Assembly (NCBI GenBank): GCA_035541015.1 | Contig: DATLFM010000023.1 | Coordinates: forward strand, 1-33,110 | Origin: Candidatus Thermoplasmatota archaeon | GTDB lineage: Archaea; Thermoplasmatota; SW-10-69-26; JACQPN01; JAIVGT01 | Reading direction: 5' to 3' | Length of the DNA: 33,110 bases | Shown here: piece after piece, positions 23,170-25,757 of the stretch | How the letters are laid out: every line of letters begins with the position of its first letter | Position numbering within the stretch: the first letter of the stretch is position 1 | Made by a program: the position numbers and the translations under genes | The notes under the pieces: generated by a model | The model's input: the letters and a program-made list of their open reading frames with translations, nothing else | Told to the model about the DNA's origin: nothing | The model's database searches: none

Positions 23170-23664
23170 ATGTCGCGCGCCGCCGAGGACCTTCGCGCCC
23201 CCCGACCGCCCGTGAGCGCCGCCGGAACCGTCGATCCCGCGCCCGCGGCGCCCGAGACCGACGTCCGCGCCCTGCGCGACAGGCTTCTCGACGTTTCGCG
23301 TCCCATGTTCGACCGCTTCCAGGCGATCTTCGCGCTTCGCAACCTCGGGACGGACGAGGCGGCCGTCGCGCTTGGCGCGGGAATGGTCCGGGACGCAAGC
23401 GCGCTCCTTCGCCACGAGTGCGCGTACGTGCTTGGCCAGATGCAGCGCGAAGCCGCCATCCCTTTCTTGGTGCAAGCCGCGCGCTTCGACGCAAACCCCA
23501 TGGTCCGGCACGAGGCGTGCGAGGCGCTTGGCGCCATCGGGACGGACGAGGTGCTTTCGGTCCTGCGCGAGATCGGCCGGACCGACGCCGCCGTCGAGGT
23601 GCGCGAAAGCTGCGAGGTCGCGCTCGCGCACATCGCCTACCTTCGCGACCCCGCCCGCTTTTAG
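23170..23664 (+). CDS. HEAT-repeat protein resembling the C-terminal half of deoxyhypusine hydroxylase, 164 aa
   Basis: After a Pro/Ala-rich N-terminus (1-30) come HEAT-like helical pairs. Residues 44-140 follow the order of the C-terminal half of eukaryotic DOHH: MFDRFQAIFALRN, LLRHECAYVLGQMQ, AAIPFL, NPMVRHEACEALGAIG and VRESCEVAL. In DOHH each half gives two His-Glu pairs that bind the diiron centre; here H82-E83 and H114-E115 are both kept, 32 residues apart. DOHH has two such halves in about 300 aa, while this protein has one, so a homodimer could rebuild the four-pair site. DOHH hydroxylates deoxyhypusine on eIF5A (aIF5A in archaea). The alternative is a phycocyanin-lyase-type HEAT protein without enzyme activity. 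The family resemblance is strong; the activity is inference. Confidence 0.82.
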   Translation: MSRAAEDLRAPRPPVSAAGTVDPAPAAPETDVRALRDRLLDVSRPMFDRFQAIFALRNLGTDEAAVALGAGMVRDASALLRHECAYVLGQMQREAAIPFLVQAARFDANPMVRHEACEALGAIGTDEVLSVLREIGRTDAAVEVRESCEVALAHIAYLRDPARF

Positions 23665-23668
23665 GGTC

Positions 23669-23953
23669 CTAAATCTCGTAGCCCTCGGGCGTCTCCCGCA
23701 CCGCCACGCGCCCGCCCACGTCGATGGCCCGGCGCGCTCTTGCCAGAAGCGAGGGGCCCGCATCGAGGCGAACGACGGCCACGCGCGCGCCCGGCCGGAA
23801 CCCCTCCGGCGGCACGTCCACGCGCGTCCAAGACAGCACGACGCCGGAAGCGGGCACGCGCCGCTTGCGCAACGGCTTGCCGCACGCGCCGCAGGACTTT
23901 CGCGGCGGAGCGAAAGCGTGGCCGCTTGCGCAACGCCCGATCGCGACCGTCAT
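23669..23953 (-). CDS. DUF35 (zinc ribbon plus OB-fold) acyl-CoA-associated protein, 94 aa
   Basis: The N-terminal part has a degenerate zinc ribbon: C8, then G11/H12 where a second Cys is usual, then C21-x2-C24. The rest (SGVVLSWTRVDVPPEGFRPG, VAVVRLDAGPSLLARA) is the short beta barrel of the DUF35 OB-fold family. Such proteins pair with thiolase-like enzymes and hold or channel acyl-CoA. The ATG at 23953 overlaps the stop of the thiolase-like gene (ATGA), matching the known partnership. At 94 aa it is shorter than the usual 120-140 aa. Its stop is 4 bp from the stop of the convergent DOHH-like gene. Confidence 0.82.
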   Translation of the reverse strand: MTVAIGRCASGHAFAPPRKSCGACGKPLRKRRVPASGVVLSWTRVDVPPEGFRPGARVAVVRLDAGPSLLARARRAIDVGGRVAVRETPEGYEI

Positions 23954-25083
23954 GCCGCCTCCAAAAGGGACACGAGCACGTTGTTGCCGTAGCCTCCGAT
24001 GTTGTGAACGAGACCGCGCCGCGCGCCGTCGACCTGCCGGCGGCCCGCGTCGCCGCGCAGCTGTCGGTGGATCTCCACCACTTGCGCCACGCCCGTTGCG
24101 CCGACGGGGTGGCCCCGCGCCTTGATGCCGCCGCCGGGATTCACGGGGAGCGAACCTCCAAGCGACGTGTCGCCGGAAAGCACCGCGCGGCGGACCCGCG
24201 AGCGGGGCACGAGGCCGAGATCGACGAGGTTCTGGAACTCGAGCACGGCAAAGGCGTCGTGCATCTCCACGACGTCGACGTCGCGGACGCTCTTGCGCGC
24301 GGAGCGCGCGCACCGCGCGGCGGCCGCGCGCGTGGCGCGAAAGGAGACGAGCGCATCGGGGTCGGTTCGACCGGCCAGCGAGAGGTCGTCCGTGGCGTGA
24401 CCAAGGCCTGCCACGCGCGTCTCCCCGCGGCGCGCCGAGAGCACGACGGCGGCCGCTCCGTCGGCCATGCTCGCGCAGTCGAGCACGCGAACGGGATCGG
24501 CCACGAGCGGGCTTGCGAGAACGTCCTCGACCAAGACGCGCCGGCGAAACTGCGCAAGCGGGTTCCGCGCGCCGTGCGCGTGCGCCTTCACGGGCGCGGC
24601 CGCGAGGTCCTCCCGCGAGAGGCCGCGCGCGTGCATCCAGGCGCGCGTGGTGAGCGCGGCAAGCGCCGGCATCGTGAGGCCGTAGCGCCGCTCGGAGGGG
24701 TGGATCATGGCGGCAAGGACGGCGGACGCTCTTGGCGTGGGAAGCGTGGTCATCTTCTCCGCGCCGACGACGAGCGCCGTTTGCGCCTGGCCCGCCGCGA
24801 TCGCGTGGCAGGCCGCTTCCACGGCGGAAAGGCCGGAGGAGGGAGCCGTCTCGACGCGCGTGGCGGCCACGCCGGCAAGGCCAAGCTCCGTGGCGACGGC
24901 CACGGCCGCGTTGGCGACGCCGGCAAACGCCTCGGGCGCTTGGGCGGACACGTAGACCCGGTCCACGGCTTGGACGCCCGCATCGTCCAACGCCTCCCGA
25001 CCGGCCGCGCGGGCAAGGTCGAGGAAGCCCTCGCGCAGGCGGCCAAAGCGCGTGTGCCCGCAGCCCGCGATCCGCACGTTCAC
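23950..25083 (-). CDS. thiolase-like protein (SCP2 type) lacking the nucleophilic cysteine, 377 aa
   Basis: The GTG start at 25083 overlaps the ATPase stop (GTGA). The fold markers of SCP2-type thiolases are present: VEMHDAFAVLEFQNL, the NPGGGIKARGHPVGATG loop with its His, and the closing HNIGGYGNN. At the nucleophile site, where the family has C-A-S-G, this protein reads P81-S82-S83-G84, so normal thiolase chemistry is unlikely. Ltp2-type retro-aldolases of steroid side-chain breakdown also lack the Cys and also need a DUF35 partner, which is encoded directly downstream here. An aldolase or a non-catalytic scaffold are both possible. The substrate is unknown. Confidence 0.86.
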   Translation of the reverse strand: MNVRIAGCGHTRFGRLREGFLDLARAAGREALDDAGVQAVDRVYVSAQAPEAFAGVANAAVAVATELGLAGVAATRVETAPSSGLSAVEAACHAIAAGQAQTALVVGAEKMTTLPTPRASAVLAAMIHPSERRYGLTMPALAALTTRAWMHARGLSREDLAAAPVKAHAHGARNPLAQFRRRVLVEDVLASPLVADPVRVLDCASMADGAAAVVLSARRGETRVAGLGHATDDLSLAGRTDPDALVSFRATRAAAARCARSARKSVRDVDVVEMHDAFAVLEFQNLVDLGLVPRSRVRRAVLSGDTSLGGSLPVNPGGGIKARGHPVGATGVAQVVEIHRQLRGDAGRRQVDGARRGLVHNIGGYGNNVLVSLLEAA

Positions 25084-25757
25084 GCGAGGATCCTCCCGTC
25101 CTGCATGGGCAGCGTGCGCCCCGCCCACGCGGCAAGCGAGGCGTCGTGGGTGGCCACGAGCATGGCGAAGCGGCGCTCGCGCCAGACGTGGTCGATGGCC
25201 TCCCGCACGAGCGCGGCCGCTTCCGCGTCGAGCTCGCCCGTGGGCTCGTCGGCCAGAAGAAGCGCGGGCCGGTTCACGAGCGCGCGCGCCACGGCCACGC
25301 GCTGCTGCTCGCCGCCGGAGAGCTCGCCCGGGCGGTGGTGCGCCCGGTCGGCAAGCCCCACGTGCGAGAGGAGCTCGTCGGCGCGGGCGGCCGCCGAGGG
25401 CGCGGCGAGGCCCGCTTCGAGCGCCGGCAGCGCCACGTTCTCGCGGGCGGTGAGCGCGGGGTGGAGGTGGAAGCGCTGGAAGACGAGGCCGACGCCGTGC
25501 AGCCGCCGGCGATCGCGCTCGTCGCGCGGCAGACCCGTCGCGGGCTTGCCGTCGAGGAGAACCTCGCCCGCGGAGGGGACGAGAAGGAGACCCGCCACGG
25601 CCAGCAGCGTGGACTTTCCGCAGCCCGAGGGGCCCGCAAGCGCCGCGCGCTCGCCGGGTTCGAGCGTCATGGCAACGCCGCGCAGGGCCTCCACGGGGCG
25701 CCTGCCGCCCACGGGCGGGAAGCGGTGGTGGACGTCCCGAAGCGCAAGCGCGGGCAT
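25080..25757 (-). CDS. ABC transporter ATPase, LolD/MacB type, 225 aa
   Basis: Walker A is GPSGCGKST, the Q-loop lies in LVFQRFHLHP, the signature is LSGGEQQRVAVARAL, Walker B is LLLADEPTGELD and the switch His is in VATHD. ELD after Walker B and the LTARENVALPAL segment are typical of LolD/MacB/FtsE-like ATPases, which drive FtsX-fold permeases. The only such permease in the window is at 27862-29061 on the opposite strand, beyond an ABC-2 pair; they may still work together. The ATG at 25757 is chosen because the domain starts there; a longer frame upstream overlaps the divergent gene. It overlaps the thiolase-like gene by GTGA. Confidence 0.9.
   Translation of the reverse strand: MPALALRDVHHRFPPVGGRRPVEALRGVAMTLEPGERAALAGPSGCGKSTLLAVAGLLLVPSAGEVLLDGKPATGLPRDERDRRRLHGVGLVFQRFHLHPALTARENVALPALEAGLAAPSAAARADELLSHVGLADRAHHRPGELSGGEQQRVAVARALVNRPALLLADEPTGELDAEAAALVREAIDHVWRERRFAMLVATHDASLAAWAGRTLPMQDGRILA

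Follow-up and report, generated by a model that had tools for sequence, protein, structure and literature searches.

A translation factor carries the unique amino acid hypusine. Deoxyhypusine hydroxylase (DOHH), which carries out the last step of hypusine synthesis, requires O2. The described eukaryotic enzymes, among them human DOHH (PDB entry 4d4z) and yeast Lia1, are single chains of ~300 aa in which eight HEAT hairpins form two symmetrical halves. In the human protein, H56, H89, E90, H207, H240, and E241 anchor a diiron center, and the side chain of deoxyhypusine is bound by E57, E90, E208, and E241 together with two glycines (PMC9117371). With respect to archaea, deoxyhypusine synthase (DHS) exists in all genomes and DOHH has been found in none, yet hypusine is present in some of these organisms (PMC5178350, PMC6105217, PMC7773846). 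Archaeal hypusine is documented mainly in the Crenarchaeota, including anaerobes (PMC5178350). In the open-access literature to August 2026, we found no report of an archaeal DOHH.

Here, we describe a half-length DOHH homolog, half-DOHH, encoded in a stretch of archaeal DNA of 33,110 nucleotides; "the window" denotes that whole stretch. The gene runs from ATG to TAG (Table 1). The encoded protein contains the motifs FALRN, RHECAYVLGQ, NPMVRHEACEALG, and VRESCEVAL, which account for four of the four motifs quoted in an earlier, sequence-only reading of this DNA. Half-DOHH is a member of an archaeal half-length family and not a broken gene. Specifically, neither a second copy nor an N-terminal half of DOHH was found elsewhere in the window's genome, and only 65 bases separate the gene from the divergent purN, which rules out that it is a piece of a longer gene. 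Contamination of the genome bin is likewise ruled out, as the gene exists in more than 100 genomes with conserved neighbors. One of the genomes that possess it, G019, consists of one assembled contig of 2.06 Mb.

Table 1. Features of the half-DOHH locus, in window coordinates
Feature	Position	Strand	Remarks
Half-length DOHH homolog gene, 164 aa, four HEAT hairpins (predicted)	23170..23664	+	Homologs of similar length in 112/391 genomes of the phylum
TVDPAP segment, corresponding to human SVDPAP, start of the DOHH C-terminal half	23227..23244	+	[ST][VI]DPAP in most homologs
His82-Glu83, corresponding to human H56-E57 and H207-E208 (iron ligand and substrate-binding residue)	23413..23418	+	Invariant in 30 homologs; roles from PMC9117371
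Gly89, corresponding to human G214 (deoxyhypusine binding)	23434..23436	+	Invariant in 30 homologs; role from PMC9117371
His114-Glu115, corresponding to human H89-E90 and H240-E241 (iron ligands)	23509..23514	+	Invariant in 30 homologs; roles from PMC9117371
Thiolase-family gene	23950..25128	-	Lies within 23669..25128 (-)

When the 164-aa protein is used as a single query in a sequence search of the PDB, human DOHH is the top match (E 1.7e-64). Residues 17–153 align with the human C-terminal half (126.4 bits, i-Evalue 1.1e-35, 56% identity), with the TVDPAP segment included, and residues 28–159 align with the N-terminal half (96.2 bits, 2.4e-26, 45% identity). Resemblance to the C-terminal half, previously proposed for residues 44–140, is thus borne out over a longer span. 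The two human halves are 40% identical to one another. A chain that served as both halves would be expected to lie closer to each human half than the halves lie to each other, and this is the pattern that these identities display. A profile built from 30 archaeal homologs retrieves human DOHH from the PDB at 1e-102, phycocyanobilin lyase at 6e-9, and Escherichia coli YibA at 4e-6, which favors DOHH over the lyase, in line with the sequence-only proposal of a DOHH-like half protein. In the single-sequence and profile searches alike, the next natural proteins after DOHH score 6e-9 or weaker. Designed alphaRep proteins also obtain high scores, as the contributions of their many regular repeats sum up.

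Structure prediction yields a parallel picture. An AlphaFold2 monomer model, produced with 30 homologs, has a mean pLDDT of 93.8 and consists of eight helices that form four HEAT hairpins. In a Foldseek comparison of this model with the PDB, human DOHH occupies ranks 1 and 2 (E 2e-10, rmsd 1.3–1.4 Å, 147–149 columns, 52% identity), and designed alphaReps follow (E 1e-4, ~30% identity). Sequence, predicted fold, both His–Glu pairs, the glycine of a half, and the SVDPAP segment are common to half-DOHH and the human and yeast enzymes. In particular, the residues of half-DOHH that align with the human metal- and substrate-binding residues are H82, E83, G89, H114, and E115, and all five are invariant among the 30 aligned homologs. 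H82–E83 and H114–E115 are the two His–Glu pairs of one half-site that the sequence-only reading had recognized. In the human N-terminal half, the equivalent of G214 is G63 by count on 4d4z; the review prints G65 (PMC9117371). Thus, half-DOHH possesses the conserved His–Glu motifs and the substrate-binding glycine of a DOHH half. By contrast, it lacks the eight hairpins in two symmetrical halves of one chain that define DOHH: the modeled protein departs from that architecture in having one half and four hairpins. By analogy, we infer that one chain provides one half-site and that a full site would need a second chain. A half-DOHH dimer is predicted because human DOHH has pseudo-two-fold symmetry. 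The archaeal protein, unlike eukaryotic DOHH, would need to dimerize, with four His–Glu pairs coming together, to complete its diiron site.

Half-DOHH homologs, typically ~160 aa in length, occur in 112 of 391 genomes of one phylum, with carriers defined by a match E-value of at most 1e-15. Regarding the names of these groups, a member of family f27 possesses a proteasome alpha subunit that closely matches 1pma, the proteasome of Thermoplasma acidophilum; on this basis, f27 is most likely the family identified with the Thermoplasmales, and the phylum is most likely the Thermoplasmatota. Carriers spread over at least eight families. They include five of the five genomes searched from the window's order as well as members of f17, f25, f31, f33, and f39. 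Families f17 (genomes of ~1.9 Mb) and f25 (genomes of ~1.4 Mb) are probably Marine Group II. Longer open reading frames of half-DOHH occur in GC-rich contigs, with the conserved part unchanged, and no tandem fusion or two-half relative was seen among the matches listed for the 391 genomes. The window protein is 43–58% identical to its aligned relatives. A scan of named genomes with the single sequence yielded one locus, a relative with 58% identity in JACPAO010000024.1, "Euryarchaeota archaeon NC_groundwater_233." Between close pairs with measurable dS, dN/dS is 0.02–0.07, revealing strong purifying selection. No relatives came to light when plasmids, phages, and viral contigs were searched.

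The partners that a deoxyhypusine hydroxylase would require are present. The sequence-only reading had proposed a search for DHS and aIF5A, and both are found in the window's genome. Specifically, this genome encodes one aIF5A, whose modifiable loop, SKPGKHGAAK, is intact and whose gene adjoins an agmatinase gene, and two DHS homologs (G000:C12, at L062:5629-6696, and G000:C82, at L061:7421-8395). One is a canonical archaeal DHS that scores above the cut-off. The other, on C12, is nearest to PRK00805 and PRK02492, which are DHS-like and agmatine-coupling models, and scores below their cut-offs. Two DHS-type proteins also exist in most of the relatives checked. More broadly, of 36 genomes checked, all 36 encode DHS and 35 encode aIF5A, and a GKHG.[AS]K loop is present in all 30 aIF5A sequences read. 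Searches of the window's genome for AdoMet decarboxylase and spermidine synthase found neither. Thermus converts agmatine to homospermidine in two steps, with an agmatine-coupling synthase acting first and a ureohydrolase second (PMC10981699). By analogy, we speculate that the second DHS-like protein and the agmatinase could make homospermidine, which could be the aminobutyl donor for DHS.

A link between half-DOHH and aerobic life emerges from the distribution of the terminal oxidase subunit COX1. COX1 is present in 101 of 112 carriers versus 100 of 279 non-carriers (Fisher p 2e-24, across genomes that are related to one another), and the 11 carriers that lack it are incomplete assemblies. 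Because of this relatedness, the comparison was also made by family: COX1 occurs in 8 of 8 carrier families versus ~16 of ~49 families overall (p ~3e-5), figures that are approximate, as they cover the families listed. This co-occurrence is consistent with O2 dependence of half-DOHH. Family f27 possesses COX1, and half-DOHH exists in 0 of its 27 genomes, which agrees with the report that hypusine is scarce or absent in the Thermoplasmales and that deoxyhypusine is present there (PMC5178350). Several COX1-positive lineages encode DHS and aIF5A without half-DOHH. Thus, hydroxylation appears to be dispensable.

In the window, half-DOHH is transcribed divergently from purN and convergently with the thiolase region. 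Beside the thiolase-family gene, on the same minus strand, lies a short open reading frame, zinc-ribbon/OB-like as judged by eye, whose end lies within a few bases of the half-DOHH stop codon; together, the two look like an archaeal thiolase/DUF35 pair. Elsewhere in the phylum, genes encoding a primase small subunit and a MetRS-like protein reside near half-DOHH in Marine Group II-like loci. In the neighborhoods read, no DHS or aIF5A gene adjoins half-DOHH, a point against a role in hypusine synthesis.

Gene order does furnish an argument that half-DOHH retains the DOHH fold and diiron chemistry and acts on some other substrate, such as one in quinone biosynthesis. In seven of seven genomes read that are probably Marine Group II, drawn from two families (L054 to L060), half-DOHH comes immediately after an MqnD-like menaquinone gene of the same strand. 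Aerobic respiration, moreover, would account for the COX1 association equally well. However, four carriers (G062, G149, G211, and G001) lack the menaquinone family PF02621, and four genomes without half-DOHH (G052, G056, G077, and G049) possess it. This uncoupling across the phylum speaks against a role in menaquinone synthesis. The neighborhood in the window's order, furthermore, is an unrelated one, and the counterparts of the residues with which human DOHH binds deoxyhypusine are invariant. We regard a different substrate as improbable. Still further from the data is the idea of a generic HEAT or bilin-lyase-like binding protein whose His–Glu pairs are coincidental, to which we assign almost no weight. 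In its favor, Pfam names only HEAT and related repeats in the 164-aa protein, the best NCBIfam match is the phycobilisome protein NblB, and the cyanobacterial proteins CpcE/CpcF and NblB do have HEAT_PBS-type repeats in common with half-DOHH. The NCBIfam matches, however, fall far below threshold (24.5 bits against a family cut-off of 300 for NblB, 18.3 against 220 for CpcF, and 13 against 330 for CpcE), indicating that the protein is neither a bilin lyase nor NblB. CpcE/CpcF are poorer matches in fold (20–23% identity, ~5 Å rmsd). The designed alphaReps and E. coli YibA display the same HEAT superhelix and match it mostly at 2–5 Å rmsd and ~20–32% identity, far behind human DOHH. Given that human DOHH is well ahead of all other natural PDB proteins in both sequence and fold, and that the metal- and substrate-binding residues are invariant, sequence and modeled fold identify the 164-aa protein as a true relative of DOHH at half length and set it apart from generic HEAT and phycocyanin-lyase-like proteins.

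The hypothesis that we favor, with a probability of roughly 80%, is that half-DOHH is an O2-dependent deoxyhypusine hydroxylase that functions as a homodimer, in which two half-sites form one diiron center, and that acts on aIF5A. Its homology to DOHH, its fold, the conservation of the five residues, the presence of aIF5A and DHS, purifying selection, and the aerobic co-occurrence are established; dimerization, iron binding, and activity on aIF5A are what we infer. In the proposed mechanism, two identical chains would be related by a two-fold axis in the manner of the halves of eukaryotic DOHH. H82, H114, and E115 of both chains would hold the single diiron center, and E83 and G89 would hold the deoxyhypusine side chain. 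DHS would first make deoxyhypusine on aIF5A, and half-DOHH would subsequently activate O2 and hydroxylate that residue to yield hypusine. The prediction is that aIF5A of carriers bears hypusine and not deoxyhypusine. If so, half-DOHH would be a small, concrete candidate for an archaeal enzyme reported missing, in a phylum that probably includes the abundant Marine Group II. The sequence-only reading went further in suggesting that such a protein fills the archaeal DOHH gap. That suggestion stands in part: there is now a candidate in aerobic members of one phylum, but hypusine in anaerobic Crenarchaeota is left unexplained because an O2-dependent DOHH could not work there.

Half-DOHH also bears on the origin of the human enzyme, as it shows one form that an undivided precursor of the pseudo-symmetric eukaryotic DOHH may have taken. 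The sequence-only reading had named a dimerizing single-half protein as a plausible ancestor or analog of DOHH. At aligned sites where the human halves differ, the archaeal majority residue is that of the C-terminal half at 23 and that of the N-terminal half at 12. The identities and these site counts fit an undivided ancestor with a slower-evolving C-terminal half, and they also fit an old derivative of the C-terminal half. The tree, in which human DOHH, as two halves, is the only eukaryotic sequence, leaves the attachment of the human halves undecided, with long branches and weak support (p-AU 0.26 for the halves as one clade). We tentatively entertain, at somewhat less than even odds, that the enzyme began as the half-length homodimeric hydroxylase, O2-dependent and archaeal, and that eukaryotic DOHH arose later by duplication and fusion of an archaeal-type gene. 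Were this the case, the final reaction of hypusine synthesis would trace back to archaea and would not be purely eukaryotic in origin. The converse, that an archaeon acquired a eukaryotic two-half DOHH gene and kept the C-terminal half alone, as a homodimer or in another role, seems to us unlikely. It concerns origin and is compatible with the hydroxylase function proposed above. It would explain why the window protein is nearer to the human C-terminal than N-terminal half and why it retains the segment that precedes the human C-terminal half, and the tree accommodates it. However, the window protein is nearer to the human N-terminal half than the human C-terminal half is, the 12 sites that the archaeal majority shares with the N-terminal half alone run counter to descent from a C-terminal half, and the matches listed for the phylum include no two-half relative. 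Finally, the sequences group broadly by host family. Together with the spread over at least eight families and the divergence of the window protein from its aligned relatives, this grouping means that any transfer would have to be old.

Possible signs of erosion exist in individual genomes. Three half-DOHH genes contain one or two internal stops each (G103:C122:4338-4787, G095:C36:95378-95836, and G384:C22:87293-87742), which suggests recent loss or assembly errors. In the two f17 genomes read, G052 and G056, the expected site beside the MqnD-like gene contains no half-DOHH homolog. In G077, of f25, the site beside the MqnD-like gene, which in neighboring genera contains half-DOHH, is occupied by a gene for a 517-aa protein (L117:602-2155, minus strand) in which the first ~20 residues of half-DOHH (EFGSVDPAPPSS) are joined to an apparently unrelated helical protein; this may be the scar of a deletion or an N-terminal segment put to new use.
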